This document shows positions 2,523-46,118 of a stretch of DNA of 64,000 nucleotides, piece by piece. The notes beneath the pieces are model-generated. The model was not told the DNA's origin. It saw only the letters and a list, made by a program, of their open reading frames with translations, and made no database searches. Source of the DNA: Thermosulfuriphilus ammonigenes (GTDB lineage: Bacteria > Desulfobacterota > Thermodesulfobacteria > Thermodesulfobacteriales > ST65). Location: contig NZ_CP048877.1 in assembly GCF_011207455.1 (NCBI RefSeq), forward strand, positions 2,162,576-2,226,575, read 5' to 3'. A program made the translations under genes and the position numbers. Positions within the stretch are counted from its first letter, which is position 1, and the number at the start of each line of letters is the position of its first letter.

Positions 2523-3178
2523 TTTTTCTTAAGAAACTGATCAGCCGCTGGGCATAGCTCTCTTACCGGACATTGCTCACAAAGGGGTTTTCTGGCTCGA
2601 CAGATCTTCCGTCCGTGGTCGATGAAGACATAAGGGATTGTGGCCCAGTCCTTTCGAGGGATGATGGCCATAAGGTCCTGTTCAATCTTGTTGGGATCCT
2701 TTTCCCTGGTGAGTCCCAACCTCTGTGAGATCCGCCGTACGTGGGTGTCAACCGGAATCCCTTCCACCACCCCGTAGGCGTTGGTAAGGACTATATTGGC
2801 CGTCTTTCGGGCTACTCCTGGCAGGCGGAGCAATTCCTTCATAGTCCGGGGAACCTGGCCTCCAAACTCTTCAAGGATGATCCGAGCAGCTTCCTTGATG
2901 TTTTTGGCCTTGTTCCGGTAAAAGCCTGTGGGCCTTATATCTTGTTCCAGCTCTTCAAGTGGGGCCTGGGCATAGGCTTCCACCGTGGGGTACTTTTTAA
3001 AGAGCTTCTTGGTGACCTGATTAACTCGTTCATCGGTGCACTGGGCCGAGAGGACGGTGGCCACCAGTAGCTCGAGAGGATTGGAGAACCTGAGGGCAAT
3101 CCGGGCTTCAGGATATGTTTTTTTAAGGATCTCCAGAATCTTTTCTACCCGTCTTTTTTCTTTCGCATCGAGTTTCAT
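2519..3178 (-). CDS. nth: Endonuclease III
   Basis: A 219-residue base-excision DNA glycosylase/AP lyase for oxidised pyrimidines. It has the helix-hairpin-helix LLRLPGVARKTANIVL with the catalytic Lys, the catalytic Asp in VDTHVRRISQRLGL, and the C-terminal 4Fe-4S loop with spacing C-x6-C-x2-C-x5-C. An upstream ATG at 3232 is possible, but the ATG at 3178 is preceded by AGGAGG at good spacing and gives the normal family length, so it is chosen. Confidence 0.96.
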   Translation of the reverse strand: MKLDAKEKRRVEKILEILKKTYPEARIALRFSNPLELLVATVLSAQCTDERVNQVTKKLFKKYPTVEAYAQAPLEELEQDIRPTGFYRNKAKNIKEAARIILEEFGGQVPRTMKELLRLPGVARKTANIVLTNAYGVVEGIPVDTHVRRISQRLGLTREKDPNKIEQDLMAIIPRKDWATIPYVFIDHGRKICRARKPLCEQCPVRELCPAADQFLKKN

Positions 3179-3292
3179 GTTTACCTCCTGTTTGCCGCAA
3201 GTTTTGCTAAAAATTAAAATATTTCGCAACAAAAGCCGGCAGGCCCCTGTTTCTTGTATCCCAGAATATCATCTCAGAATTATATTTTGGCT

Positions 3293-3721
3293 ATGACCGA
3301 GGTCCATCTTTCTGGAGATCGAACAGTAGGTCGTCTGATCAAGTGGCTTCGAGCCATGGGGCTTGATGTTTCTCTCTCAGAGGCCCCCATCCCCGAAAGG
3401 CTTCATCTGACCAGGAGGAGATCCCTGCTTAAGAAGCCGGGCGTCTTGGTCTTTTGGGCCGACAGGGTTGAGGAACAAATAAAGGAGCTTTTCCGGCAAT
3501 GTCCCCAGCTTAAAGCCCAAATGCGCCCCTTCAGTCGCTGTCTTCGTTGCAACAGCCTTCTTGTTCCCGCTAAAAGAGATGAGGTCTTCGGCCTGGTGCC
3601 GGACTTTATTTATGAGACCCACAGCTCCTTTTTTCGCTGCCCAGATTGTGGCCGTATTTATTGGCCAGGGGGGCACCGGAGGCGTATGGAAAGACGTCTT
3701 AAGGACTATCTCCCTTCCTGA
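3293..3721 (+). CDS. Mut7-C RNase domain protein with zinc ribbon
   Basis: A 142-residue protein. The N-terminal half (DRTVGRLIKWLRAMGLDV) matches the Mut7-C family, a PIN-fold RNase domain related to the C-terminus of C. elegans MUT-7. The C-terminal third has two CxxC pairs (RCLRCNSLL and RCPDCGRIYWPG) forming a zinc ribbon. The start at 3293 is chosen over 3254 because the conserved region begins directly after it. Its end overlaps the end of the kinase on the other strand by 23 bases. The RNA target is unknown. Confidence 0.85.
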   Translation: MTEVHLSGDRTVGRLIKWLRAMGLDVSLSEAPIPERLHLTRRRSLLKKPGVLVFWADRVEEQIKELFRQCPQLKAQMRPFSRCLRCNSLLVPAKRDEVFGLVPDFIYETHSSFFRCPDCGRIYWPGGHRRRMERRLKDYLPS

Positions 3722-38295: not shown

Positions 38296-38393
38296 GGAAG
38301 CGCCAGGGGCACTGGTGGCCCCCCCGGACTTCAAATCCGGTGTGCCGTCTGAGAAAGGCGGCAGGTGGGTTCGATTCCCATGCGCTTCCGCCA
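38296..38393 (+). tRNA. selC: tRNA-Sec (anticodon TCA)
   Basis: A 98-base tRNA with an 8-base-pair acceptor stem GGAAGCGC/GCGCTTCC, encoded CCA end (38391-38393), extended D stem GGGGC/GCCCC, anticodon stem CCGGA/TCCGG with loop CTTCAAA (anticodon TCA at 38331-38333, reads UGA), and a long variable arm (TGCCGTCT/AGGCGGCA). The long acceptor stem and variable arm identify selenocysteine tRNA. It shows the organism decodes UGA as Sec, which supports the three in-frame TGA genes at 43.5-45.2 kb. Confidence 0.98.
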
Positions 38394-41464: not shown

Positions 41465-42079
41465 TTACGGGAAGCGGTTTTCCTTTTTCCGGTGGATTAG
41501 CTGGACTATTGCCTCTGAGTAAAAGCAGAAGATCATTCCCAAAACGCTAGAGAAGGTGGTTACCCAGAAGAGGAGAAGATGGACTTTGGGCCATCGATAG
41601 AAAAAAAGATCGAGGATGAAAAGAATCAGTCCCAAATGGATGAGAGAAGAGCCCAAACGAAGCCAATACCCTCTTTTTTCAAAGTGAAGGCGCTGACTTC
41701 CCAAAAGGGCCAGAATCAAAACCAGAGTCTGAAGGAGAAGGGAGGCCAGAAGAACCACTAAGAGGGCCATCTTGACCCCAAGACTAAGGCTGATCACCAG
41801 GACGCCTATCATTAGGGCTAAAGAGAAGTAGCTGAGCCACTGAAGAGGAAAAAGCCGTTTGGGAATACAGATGCCCAATACAAGAACTAGGGCGATCAGA
41901 AAGGGAGACACTAGGCGATTCATCCTCTCCATGAAGTGTATCTGAACTACAGGAGGGGCCAGGTGTACTTCGGCGTATTTATAGGCGAACATGGCATAGA
42001 TACAGATCAGGGAGATGACAAAAAGAAGCAGGGTAGTGATCAAGATGAGATAAAAGTCGTAGGAAAACTTTGTCTTCAT
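41465..42079 (-). CDS. Six-helix membrane protein next to the CcsA-like gene
   Basis: A 204-residue membrane protein with six clear hydrophobic segments and short loops. No family is recognised. It is 14 bases downstream of the CcsA-like gene and likely co-transcribed, which suggests a partner in heme handling or cytochrome assembly (for example a ResB-like or anchoring role). There are no CxxC or heme motifs. Confidence 0.7.
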   Translation of the reverse strand: MKTKFSYDFYLILITTLLLFVISLICIYAMFAYKYAEVHLAPPVVQIHFMERMNRLVSPFLIALVLVLGICIPKRLFPLQWLSYFSLALMIGVLVISLSLGVKMALLVVLLASLLLQTLVLILALLGSQRLHFEKRGYWLRLGSSLIHLGLILFILDLFFYRWPKVHLLLFWVTTFSSVLGMIFCFYSEAIVQLIHRKKENRFP

Positions 42080-42093
42080 AGGCCTTTATCCAT

Positions 42094-43125
42094 TTATTGC
42101 ATAGTGTGCTGACCGGGAAAGAAGAAAGAGGCCAAGAAGGTGAAGACCATGGCCCCAAAGCAGAGAATTCCCAAAAAGGCTGAGAAATGCCACATCCATC
42201 GTCGGTGGATATACAGCCTTATATGGAGATAAGCGCTGAAAATGACCCACATCATAATGGAGGCGGCGATTTTAGGGTCCCACCACCAGTTTGGCCCCCA
42301 GGCTTTAAGAGCCCAAGGATAACCAAGGAGCATTCCTAAAGTGAGCAGGAAGAAGGCCAGCTTGGCCATAGAGTAGCTCATGGCCTCTATGGCCATCTGT
42401 CGGCGAAAGAGCATGAAAAGGCTACAGATAAAAACCACGCTTATGGCCGCATAAGAAAGAAAAAGGAGTGGGGGGTGAAACCACATGTATTCGGCATTGT
42501 AGTAAAAGACCATTTTGGAATAAAGCCTCATAAAGAGCCCCAGCTGGGCCATAGGAGCCAGATTTTGATTAAACCAGGGAGAAATTTCCTCGAAAAAGCG
42601 AGGCAGAGGCCTGGCGAAGGGATTGGCCCAAATGGCCATGATCCCTATCTGAATGGCCAACCCTAGGAGAAGGGCCCCTCGAAACCGGTGGTCTGAAAGA
42701 CGCCTGTGGGCGTAAAGGGCCATAAAGGCATAACTCATGAACCAAAAATAATATTTTTCGTTTTCAATCCAAAGTGGGAGGATATATCGGGGGGGAGAAG
42801 AGGGGTTGTAAAGGGGGAGACCATAGGGAGATTTCTGATTGAGGTTAGAGAGATAGTGATTTAGCCATTTGGCAACCTCGTCAGGAAGCACAAGAGGAAG
42901 ATGAAGATATATTTGGTAGTGAAGCCAAATGAACCAGAAGAAGCCGAGAAGAAAAACTCCTACCCCGGCTACAAGAATACCCAAGGAGAGTCTTTCGGCT
43001 ACCGGGCGCGGGGAGAGAAGATTTACAGCACCCCAAAGGCCACTAGCACCCCCTACAGCTAAAAGGGCCCCCAACAATAGGCTTCCTACGGTTTTAAAGG
43101 TTTCCATCGGAATAAGGTCTTCCAT
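42094..43125 (-). CDS. CcsA/CcmF-like cytochrome c biogenesis membrane protein
   Basis: A 343-residue membrane protein with about eight hydrophobic segments and the heme-handling Trp-rich motif (WGPNWWWDPKIAASIMMW) plus a conserved His-Pro motif (YMWFHPPLLFLSYAA) ahead of it. These define the CcsA/CcmF/CcmC superfamily, which presents heme for attachment to apocytochromes. The large periplasmic loop (residues ~70-115) resembles a shortened CcmF rather than CcsA. The start could instead be the ATG at 43107. The many multiheme cytochromes here require such a system. Confidence 0.85.
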   Translation of the reverse strand: MEDLIPMETFKTVGSLLLGALLAVGGASGLWGAVNLLSPRPVAERLSLGILVAGVGVFLLGFFWFIWLHYQIYLHLPLVLPDEVAKWLNHYLSNLNQKSPYGLPLYNPSSPPRYILPLWIENEKYYFWFMSYAFMALYAHRRLSDHRFRGALLLGLAIQIGIMAIWANPFARPLPRFFEEISPWFNQNLAPMAQLGLFMRLYSKMVFYYNAEYMWFHPPLLFLSYAAISVVFICSLFMLFRRQMAIEAMSYSMAKLAFFLLTLGMLLGYPWALKAWGPNWWWDPKIAASIMMWVIFSAYLHIRLYIHRRWMWHFSAFLGILCFGAMVFTFLASFFFPGQHTMQ

Positions 43126-43252: not shown

Positions 43253-43543
43253 ATGGATCAAGAAACCACGGCCCGCTTCTTTAAAGCCCTGGGAGACATT
43301 AATCGCTTACGAATTGTCTTTTTCCTCCTCCAGGGAGAGCGCTCTGTGGGACGATTAGTTGAAGAACTTGGCCTTTCTCAACCTCTGGTCTCCCACCATC
43401 TCAAGGAGCTCAAAATGGGAGGAGTAGTCAAAACCAGGCGAAAAGGCCCCTTTATTTATTACAGCCTCAAGGATCCCCGGCGAATGTTAGAGATTCTTGA
43501 ACAGGTCAAAAGGATTACCACCGGAGGGAACCATGGCTCTTAA
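43253..43543 (+). CDS. ArsR-family transcriptional regulator
   Basis: A 96-residue winged-helix repressor (FFKALGDINRLRIVFFLLQG, VGRLVEELGLSQPLVSHHLK, KTRRKGPFIYYSLKDP). It has no Cys pair of the ArsR/SmtB metal site, so it may sense something other than thiophilic metals. It overlaps the following Sec-containing gene by 11 bases and probably controls the selenoprotein group downstream. Confidence 0.92.
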   Translation: MDQETTARFFKALGDINRLRIVFFLLQGERSVGRLVEELGLSQPLVSHHLKELKMGGVVKTRRKGPFIYYSLKDPRRMLEILEQVKRITTGGNHGS

Positions 43544-43994
43544 GTACCAAGAATTAATTAAAGACCTAAGTCTAGAGGAAATCAAAGACCTCTTTTTGGC
43601 CCTGGCCTCACAGGTTTTTTCTCTTCTGGATGAGGAGTCTCAAAAGGAGATTGTCCTTCGGATGTTTGGCCATGAGGAGGGACAGATACCCTCGATGGTT
43701 TATTATTGACTGGCTAAGTGTCTTGACGCGGGAGTTGACCCGCGTTCCATGTGTCAGAGGCTGGTATCCACTGTAGATATAAGGAGAAAACTCTCCCAGG
43801 TGGCTCCAGAGGCCATAGTCAGCCTTTTTGAGGATTGGCTTGAAGAGCTAGAAGAGGCCATTTTAAACCATATTAAAGAGTATCCTACTATTTCTGATGA
43901 AGAGCTGGCTGAACAACTGAAGATCTCAAAGGAAGGGGTGACCTTTCTCCTTGACCGGATGGTCAAGGAAGGAAAGATTCGTTCTATTCCCTGA
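43533..43994 (+). CDS. Probable new selenoprotein with U-x3-C motif and winged-helix-like tail
   Basis: Read as Sec, the TGA at 43707-43709 joins two frames into one 153-residue protein: helical N-terminus, SMVYY-Sec59-LAKC63 (a U-x3-C redox-type motif), more helices (RKLSQVAPEAIVSLFEDWLE) and a C-terminal segment PTISDEELAEQLKISKEGVT that looks like a winged helix-turn-helix. Support: the same frame on both sides, no ribosome binding site before the internal ATG at 43749, a perfect SECIS-like hairpin 23 bases after TGA, and selC in the window. The ATG at 43533 follows GGAGGG and overlaps arsR by 11 bases. I do not recognise a family. Alternative: two small genes or a pseudogene. Confidence 0.75.
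43726..43745 (+). other. SECIS-like hairpin 1
   Basis: ACGCGGG (43726-43732) pairs perfectly with CCCGCGT (43739-43745) around the loop AGTTGA. The loop begins 23 bases after the in-frame TGA (43707-43709) and has G at its second position. Bacterial SelB-binding hairpins generally need a short upper stem about 16-37 bases past the UGA with a G in the first two loop positions. Confidence 0.72.
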
Positions 43995-44094: not shown

Positions 44095-44415
44095 ATGAGG
44101 TTTTTGATCCTTATTTCCTCGGATAATCCAGAGGTGGTCTGGAATGCCTTCCGAATCTCTAACCTCATTCTGGATCAGGGAGATCAGGCCTCGGTATTTT
44201 TAAATGGTCCTTCGGTGGCCTACCAAAAAATAGATTCTCAAAGGTTTCCTATCAGGAAATTGGCCAGGGATTTAGTCCTCAAAGGTGGTCATCTTTGGGC
44301 TTGAGGTAAGTCTATGGCCATCCACGGGGTGGGTGAGGACGACTGCTTACGGAAGGGGACTCAGAAACTTCTCTACGACCTCTCTAAAGAGGCCGAAAAA
44401 ATAATCTCTTATTAG
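44095..44415 (+). CDS. DsrE-like selenoprotein
   Basis: With TGA 44302-44304 read as Sec70, the frame gives a 106-residue DsrE/DsrF-like protein: MRFLILISSDNPEVVWNAFR, then LKGGHLWA-Sec-GKSMAIHGVG, ending LLYDLSKEAEKIISY before TAG. In this family the equivalent position is a functional Cys (typical A-C-G-x-C). The length and ending after the TGA fit the family, while stopping at the TGA (69 residues) would lose its last third. A DsrE-like selenoprotein family is known from Desulfobacterota symbionts. The ATG follows GGGAGG. Proposed role: sulfur or selenium transfer or redox relay. Confidence 0.85.
44319..44335 (+). other. SECIS-like hairpin 2
   Basis: CATCCAC (44319-44325) pairs with GTGGGTG (44329-44335), one G-T pair, with the loop GGG (or CGGGG if the closing pair opens). 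The loop starts 21 bases after the TGA at 44302-44304 and begins with G. Confidence 0.65.
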
Positions 44416-44424
44416 GAAGGAACA

Positions 44425-45171
44425 CTGGGTAAGCTCTGCTGAAAGTCCAAAGAAAACCTTCCCGGGGTCTTCGGGAAGAAAAGTAATTGTTTTATCTGTG
44501 GGAAGCCTCTGCTTTACCTCAATGAAGGCCGATGGCTTCACTGCACGCTCTGTAACCAGGCGGTATTAGCCCACATCTTTTGCCCGGAAGGCCACTTTGT
44601 CTGCGAAAGCTGCCATAGAGAGCTGGCCGTAAAGGTAGCCCTTAAAATAGCAAAGGCCAATACCAGGCCGGACCCTATAGCGGTTACCACGGAGGTTCTA
44701 AAACGGACCAGTATTCCCATGCTTGGTTGCCACCACGCTTTTATAGCAGCCTTTTCTCTTCTTTCAGCCCTTAAGGCAGCAGGCCTCCCGGTTCCCCATG
44801 ACGCTTTTGAGGAAGTTTCCCAGAGGACAGGGGCCCAAGCCATAAGCGGATACTGTGGTCTTACAGGGATTTGCGGCCTGATACCGTCCCTTGGAGCCTG
44901 CTTGTCCTTTCTCGTTGGGGCTCGTTGCGGGACGAAAAGAGAACAAAAGATGGTAATGGAATTTAATCTTCGCCTCCTTGAAAAGATATATCTCTTGCCT
45001 GCTCCAAGTTGCTGTAAGGCCTATATGTGGGCTGGTCTCGAGGAGGCAGTGTTTTTCTTCTCAAAAAGTTTTTCCCTTAAAGGACTCTTGTTTTCAAAAC
45101 CCCTTTGTGAATTTTACAAAGACCATCCTCACGGATGTCCGGGGAGAAATTGCCCTTATTTTCCGACCTAA
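44425..45171 (+). CDS. DUF5714-like probable selenoprotein, non-ATG start
   Basis: The frame is open from just after the DsrE-like stop codon to 45171 if TGA 44440-44442 is read as Sec. No ATG, GTG or TTG lies between the upstream TAG and the TGA; CTG at 44425 follows AGGAAGG and is the best start, giving GKLC-Sec-KSKEN at the N-terminus. The rest resembles DUF5714: Cys pairs (CFICGK, CTLCNQ, CESCH), LGCHHAFIAAF, GYCGLTGICGLIPS, PAPSCCKAYMWAGLEEAVFF. A SECIS-like hairpin with loop GGGTCTT follows 22 bases after TGA. Without Sec decoding the only start is ATG 44719, which drops the Cys-rich N-terminal domain. Function of the family is unknown. Confidence 0.72.
44458..44478 (+). other. SECIS-like hairpin 3
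   Basis: CTTCCCG (44458-44464) pairs perfectly with CGGGAAG (44472-44478) around the 7-base loop GGGTCTT. The loop starts 22 bases after the TGA at 44440. The loop contains GGTCT, the same loop string found in the E. coli fdhF SECIS that SelB recognises. Confidence 0.78.
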
Positions 45172-45231: not shown

Positions 45232-45290
45232 AAAGCTGCTTATATTAATTTTATTTTCAGGAATAGATTCCTAAAATGAGGAGAGTAGGG

Positions 45291-46118
45291 ATGAAAAGAT
45301 TTGGCGAAAAGTTTCCTCAGTATGATCCTTTAGAGGTCTATCAGCTTTTTGTTCCCGTTAGAGAGAAGGGGATCTTCGAGCACTATCGCCTGGCCAGGGA
45401 AAGCCTTCAGTACGTGGAGGACAGTCCTTTTGGGGGGCCGGAAGAGGGCCTCATAGCCCTTGAAAAGGAGGAGATTCCCGAAGAGCTCAAGTTATCTGTG
45501 GTGGCTGTGGCCCCCACGGCCACGGTCTATCCCATAACTGGTGATGAGGAGGGGCTTGCCGAAAGCATTAAAAAGACCCTGGCTTATTTCAACTATTATG
45601 TGGTGGAGCTTGGGGTAAATATCCTCACCGGTCAAGAATACTCTATACCCGAGTTCCTTTTAAGTGTGGGCCTTAGAGCTGATTCTCAAGAGTCCACCGC
45701 TGCTGTAGCCCATGATCTTTTTCCAAAGGATATCATTAAAAGGGTAGAGATAGTATCCGGTAAAATATCTCTTAACCTCAGCAAAGCCTTGACTTTTATC
45801 CCCAGTCCTTGGGGGAAAGTGGCCTCCGAGATTGTCTCCGAGATTCTACCTATAGAAATTAATCCCATCGAGTTTAATTGGGGTTATGATAAATACGAAA
45901 TTGACGCCGCCGGCCGAAACAATTATCGAATTTACTGGAAAATCTACAAGACCAAAAATGTTCAAGCTTTTAACCCTCTCCTTACAGTAAGGGCCAAGAA
46001 AACAGCCAAGAGGATATCGGCCAGAGTAACAGCTCGTTATCGGATTAAGAGCGGTTGGTTTAGTAGCCTGGTAAAGGCCACTTTACCCCGGGAAGTTCCC
46101 ATTTGGCCTCCGGTGTGA
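45291..46118 (+). CDS. Unrecognised 275-residue protein downstream of the selenoprotein genes
   Basis: A soluble protein with no signal peptide, membrane segment or Cys pair that I can see. Segments such as FPQYDPLEVYQLFVPVREKG, VAVAPTATVYPITGDEEGLA and SVGLRADSQESTAAVAHDLF suggest a mixed alpha/beta fold; the C-terminal third is beta-rich and basic. The start at 45291 is preferred over 45276 because GAGGAG is then correctly placed. It may be part of the preceding cluster or separate; a weak hairpin lies between. Confidence 0.75.
   Translation: MKRFGEKFPQYDPLEVYQLFVPVREKGIFEHYRLARESLQYVEDSPFGGPEEGLIALEKEEIPEELKLSVVAVAPTATVYPITGDEEGLAESIKKTLAYFNYYVVELGVNILTGQEYSIPEFLLSVGLRADSQESTAAVAHDLFPKDIIKRVEIVSGKISLNLSKALTFIPSPWGKVASEIVSEILPIEINPIEFNWGYDKYEIDAAGRNNYRIYWKIYKTKNVQAFNPLLTVRAKKTAKRISARVTARYRIKSGWFSSLVKATLPREVPIWPPV

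Follow-up and report, generated by a model that had tools for sequence, protein, structure and literature searches.

A DUF5714 selenoprotein gene with an apparent CTG start in a TsoA/DsrE-like cluster of Thermosulfuriphilus ammonigenes

Described selenoproteins related to the cluster

The selenocysteine (Sec) form of DUF5714 has already been catalogued as MbdU, a metal-binding double selenoprotein with the motif CU (NF045648; Haft and Tolstoy 2025, as cited in PMC13188914), and TsoA and Sec-containing DsrE-like proteins (PF02635, motif UxxC) are also among the entries of that source. The Sec form, in which the first-pass annotation of the window (the whole 64-kb stretch of DNA analysed here) had seen a handle on DUF5714, is therefore not the first such handle. 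The protein encoded at our locus has in common with MbdU the DUF5714 core, the zinc ribbon, the N-terminal CU pair and the SECIS element, and its residues 18–246 match positions 37–266 of the NF045648 profile (E=3.4e-73). However, MbdU consists of 468 residues as compared to 248 here, its DUF2284 half and second Sec are missing from our protein, and our gene has no canonical start codon. The score of 247 bits lies below the curated cut-off of 600 over 468 positions. DUF2284 is present in the full-length relatives and was absent from a profile search of this genome. Judged by these matches the protein is a variant of MbdU corresponding to its N-terminal half and not a member, and it would share MbdU's way of working as far as can be read from the sequence.

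The cluster resembles the three selenoprotein operon (Tso) in that a TsoR-like ArsR regulator and a TsoA-like Sec protein are encoded directly upstream; both, however, score below their cut-offs (NF045707 and NF045695, respectively), and the remaining two genes here encode a DsrE-like and a DUF5714 selenoprotein. No TsoB above the cut-off of 805 bits could be identified in the genome, where the search gave just fragmentary matches of 27 and 22 bits. The TsoA-like protein carries the motif YULAKC in place of LULAxC, which makes its gene a relative of tsoA. Likewise, the DsrE-like protein belongs to the DsrE family and has Sec at the conserved Cys position, but its motif is AUGKS, where Ser replaces the second Cys of UxxC. 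The DUF5714 core also has a weak likeness to the C_GCAxxG_C_C putative redox proteins (PF09719 / TIGR01909), with weak matches in 11 of 42 DUF5714 members (best E=8.7e-5) and in 3 of 42 in NCBIfam; our protein itself has no match, and the likeness gives no more than a hint that the core may have a redox role. New in this locus are the joint occurrence of these genes in one cluster and the apparent CTG start directly before the Sec codon.

The selenocysteine codon and its hairpin

All features of the cluster lie on the + strand. The DUF5714 gene occupies positions 44425–45171, encodes a predicted protein of 248 residues and ends at the TAA stop codon at 45169–45171. A profile search located DUF5714 (PF18978) at residues 75–246 (profile positions 4–173 of 173; E=1.7e-35) with 122.5 bits, above the curated cut-off of 26.2 bits. 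Ahead of the domain lies a zinc-ribbon-like region, CxxC...CxxC...C...H..C..C (residues 22–64; 44488–44616), which is conserved in the relatives. Nine Cys/His residues are invariant in an alignment of 42 sequences (C22, C25, C40, C43, C53, H57, C60, C63 and H64), and all 24 invariant residues of the alignment are present in this protein. The predicted N-terminus reads LGKLCUK, where the TGC-TGA at 44437–44442 gives Cys 5 and, by the TGA at 44440–44442, Sec 6; the frame remains open for 242 codons after this TGA.

Contigs and 395 genomes of the phylum were scanned, which yielded about 100 DUF5714 loci showing the pattern of the zinc ribbon. Once duplicates had been taken out, 65 distinct loci, ours among them, share an N-terminal in-frame TGA, located 16–32 codons ahead of the first CxxC. 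The pair is Cys-Sec in 61 of the 65, Thr-Sec in two, Trp-Sec in one and Sec-Cys in a single locus, that of Thermosulfurimonas dismutans. The homologues thus do not begin at the zinc motif with an unconserved upstream part, and the Cys-Sec pair that the first-pass annotation had placed at residues 5–6 proves to be the common form. N-terminal Sec forms occur in Thermodesulfobacteriota, Desulfosporosinus, Clostridium and others. Non-Sec homologues have Cys-Cys (L097), Cys-Arg (L046), Cys-Ser (L090) or Cys-Ile (L094) at this place, or lack the tail; in L046, L090 and L094 the preceding Cys is retained beside the Arg, Ser or Ile at the Sec position. That a few homologues have Arg, Ser, Ile or Cys in place of Sec suggests that it is dispensable in some places.

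The TGA is followed by a hairpin at 44458–44478. The first-pass annotation had described it as a 7-bp stem with the loop GGGTCTT; the hairpin itself is present, whereas ViennaRNA adds a G-U pair, giving an 8-bp bacterial SECIS-type stem with the loop GGUCU, 23 nt after the TGA. Since the overall folding energy of the region after the TGA showed no excess over shuffles (ViennaRNA, z -0.92), a position-constrained test and covariation were used. Under a rule modelled on bacterial SECIS elements (loop 14–30 nt after the TGA and a G as its first or second base), the hairpin reaches -10.7 kcal/mol, which is matched by ~1% of dinucleotide shuffles (p ~0.01). Hairpins this strong follow 20 of the 2036 TGAs in the window, two of these 20 having a GGUC loop, so that the hairpin by itself is only moderately rare.

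When the same rule is applied to the family, 45 of the 65 Sec loci score better than 95% of their dinucleotide shuffles. GGTC is found at offset 18 after the TGA in 29 loci and at offset 21 in another 13, with hardly any occurrences elsewhere. With 47 sequences anchored only by the loop, a set from which this locus was left out owing to its longer stem and its loop at 23 nt, 86% of the cells are paired as compared to 62% in shuffles, double-sided changes number 85 against 24 and are seen at all 7 pairs, and the covariation score is 0.686 against 0.220. These shuffles ignore kinship; controls with slid partners, which retain it, gave 24–48% paired cells and a covariation score of at most 0.18. 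The decisive support for a SECIS element is therefore comparative and comes from the conserved position of the Sec codon and the covarying hairpin in the family.

The genome also encodes the machinery required for decoding. A tRNA-Sec gene is located at 38296–38393 (+), not adjacent to the cluster (ARAGORN; Rfam RF01852, 76 bits), and SelA (E=1e-190) and SelB (E=9e-118) are present. Because the homologues share the N-terminal Sec position and the covarying hairpin, and the genome has tRNA-Sec, SelA and SelB, we read TGA 44440 with high confidence as a Sec codon. Translation through this TGA, for which the first-pass annotation had argued from the hairpin, is strongly supported by the same comparison.

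The selenoprotein cluster and its distribution

Three genes precede the DUF5714 gene. The first, at 43253–43543, encodes the TsoR-like ArsR/SmtB regulator (NF045707, E=1.2e-29; 102 bits, cut-off 115). The second, at 43533–43994, encodes the TsoA-like selenoprotein with its Sec codon at TGA 43707–43709 (NF045695, E=2.7e-36; 125 bits, cut-off 170); a strong SECIS-like hairpin with the loop AGUUGA accompanies this TGA. The DsrE-like selenoprotein gene at 44095–44415 has its Sec codon at TGA 44302–44304, ends with TAG and matches PF02635 with 24.7 bits (cut-off 22.7). In an alignment with paralogues, its Sec falls on the first Cys of their ACGTC motif, and Sec-containing orthologues are found in two further genomes (G029 and G032). 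On the opposite strand, at 41465–43125, a CcsB/NrfE-like cytochrome c assembly gene and a membrane protein gene are divergent from the cluster, and downstream (45276–46118, +) lies a 280-aa ORF without a match in Pfam and NCBIfam.

Among the 41 genomes of the class, eight carry a TsoA-like gene with TGA, and TsoR and DsrE-like genes adjoin it in all seven relatives examined. The Sec form of DUF5714 occurs in five of the eight TsoA-bearing genomes, one copy being broken, while three have no such gene beside TsoA; the other 33 genomes of the class contain at most a short zinc-ribbon match and no DUF5714-Sec. The order in the relatives is TsoA-DUF5714-DsrE as compared to TsoA-DsrE-DUF5714 here. 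The broken copy lies at the same position of the cluster in a genome of the same order (G016; L182, ~3095–3537), where the zinc ribbon is partly deleted and the domain is split over two frames; the adjoining TsoA-like gene is open. In another family of the phylum, a TsoX-like HSGNPNU motif is encoded next to DUF5714-CU (L124, 1464; L125, 2202), which appears to be a second link of DUF5714-Sec to Tso-type genes.

The start of the gene and the expected product

The frame of the DUF5714 gene is closed upstream by TAG 44413–44415, the stop codon of the DsrE-like gene, which lies in the same frame. From this TAG to the first zinc-ribbon Cys the codons read GAA GGA ACA CTG GGT AAG CTC TGC TGA AAG TCC AAA GAA AAC CTT CCC GGG GTC TTC GGG AAG AAA AGT AAT TGT, and this codon reading contains no ATG, GTG or TTG. 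It agrees with the first-pass annotation, which had found none of the three before TGA 44440 and had pointed to the CTG after AGGAAGG. The Shine-Dalgarno (SD)-like stretch AGGAAGG at 44414–44420 overlaps the DsrE stop, lies 4 nt before CTG 44425–44427 and forms a duplex of -6.4 kcal/mol with the anti-SD; in the three upstream genes of the cluster the SD lies ~5 nt before ATG. The zinc ribbon must be translated and no other plausible start precedes it, and the CTG is therefore a well-supported candidate for the start of the gene. The proposal that this unusual start is probably real thus holds in so far as the CTG is the sole plausible start-like codon between the TAG and the ribbon, although the case for it is made by exclusion and position. 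AAG 44431, whose second base differs from ATG, is far less likely.

The N-termini of the homologues do not share this feature, as all 64 other Sec loci have ATG, GTG or TTG within 20 codons upstream of Sec. One candidate for a homologous start, 'MGKTCI' in L009 and L094 with its ATG aligned with our CTG, was rejected as the frame runs upstream into a thioredoxin-like domain. According to PMC11497404, CUG accounts for 0.024% of bacterial start codons and yields 0.86% of the AUG output in E. coli, and little initiation is to be expected from the CTG. The genome was also searched for a relaxed initiator tRNA, without success; the anticodon stem has the normal three G-C pairs. Since the order in the relatives puts DUF5714 before DsrE, a rearrangement joining DUF5714 to the end of the DsrE-like gene may account for the missing canonical start.

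We favour, with a probability of roughly 0.83, a functional selenoprotein gene which would start at CTG 44425, insert Sec at TGA 44440 via the SECIS element and be read through to TAA 45169. The alternative with the most weight is that the gene, Sec-encoding by ancestry, recently lost its start by rearrangement or point mutation and is now an early pseudogene, poorly translated or not at all. Being the only Sec form of the 65 without a canonical start, the altered gene order, the decayed copy in G016 and the three TsoA-bearing genomes of the class without the gene beside TsoA speak for such a loss, but the 242 open codons, the retention of 24 of 24 invariant residues, the intact SECIS and the SD-like stretch correctly spaced for CTG make it unlikely. 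Somewhat less probable still is an error of sequencing or assembly hiding a true ATG (or GTG or TTG) in an ordinary MbdU relative. A single base change would suffice for a canonical start where the SD predicts one, and CUG starts are very rare; against this, the genome is a single contig with a completeness score of 100%, which says nothing on single bases.

Two further explanations are very improbable. Initiation only at ATG 44719, the first canonical in-frame start after TGA 44440, would turn the TGA into a stop and leave the upstream part untranslated, but it would lose the invariant zinc ribbon with 10 of the 24 invariant residues, lacks an SD (-3.2 kcal/mol) and leaves the conserved Cys-Sec pair and the SECIS unexplained. 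Read-through of the DsrE TAG into a DsrE-DUF5714 fusion would make a separate start needless, and the two genes do lie in the same frame, 9 nt apart. However, the DsrE-like protein ends where its free-standing orthologues end, no fused homologue was seen, and the SD-like stretch overlaps the DsrE stop.

Taking the CTG start with Sec decoding as the working model, initiation with fMet at CTG 44425 would be carried out either by ribosomes that have just terminated at TAG 44413 of the DsrE-like selenoprotein gene or by fresh 30S subunits recruited to AGGAAGG. After Gly-Lys-Leu-Cys, SelB on the hairpin at 44458–44478 would direct Sec to TGA 44440, and translation would then proceed across the zinc ribbon and the DUF5714 domain as far as TAA 45169. 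Of this reading, the Sec codon, the SECIS, the zinc ribbon and the cluster are the parts that the comparison with the family shows.

The predicted model of the protein has an overall pLDDT of 88.8, with values <50 for residues 1–16, the Cys-Sec tail, which suggests a disordered tail preceding a folded core rich in Cys. When the model was compared to the PDB, Foldseek found nothing at E<=0.001. The top row from VIA-align, the [4Fe-4S] cysteine desulfidase CyuA (Z 5.9, rmsd 4.9, 150 aligned), was not retained as it falls within the range of common arrangements. A Pfam scan of the C-terminal halves of fused relatives identified the partner either as DUF2284, which is predicted to bind metal and contains a second Sec, or as an AhpD-like domain, likewise with an additional Sec. 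The AhpD-like (CMD) fusions to DUF5714-CU (L053, L093, L102 and L107) carry an in-frame TGA in GC.PUT.YC; three of them (L093, L102 and L107) have CKT-TGA near the C-terminus, either a third Sec or a plain stop. DUF5714 fusions of ~1000 residues are also found among the relatives. Because these partners (DUF2284, AhpD-like) and the neighbours (ArsR-type regulator, DsrE-like) point the same way, a thiol/selenol or metal(loid) role can be weakly inferred as the biochemical function of DUF5714-Sec. The tail would most likely act as a mobile thiol/selenol arm exchanging electrons or bound metal(loid)/sulfur species with the core, and we give even odds to this general class of role, in which a Cys-Sec arm hands electrons, soft metal(loid)s or sulfur species on to the core.

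A doubtful extension is that CUG is too weak alone and DUF5714-Sec is made solely by ribosomes just off the DsrE-like selenoprotein. If so, Sec decoding at TGA 44302 would gate the next selenoprotein, giving a selenium-dependent translational relay in one operon. An annotation allowing only ATG, GTG or TTG and stopping at TGA would miss the first 98 residues or the whole gene. If the CTG start is real, it would be a rare native CUG start that can be tested, and the recoding signal shortly after it lends it credibility. The placement of a DUF5714 selenoprotein in a TsoA/DsrE cluster links recently described selenoprotein groups with each other in thermophilic Thermodesulfobacteriota.
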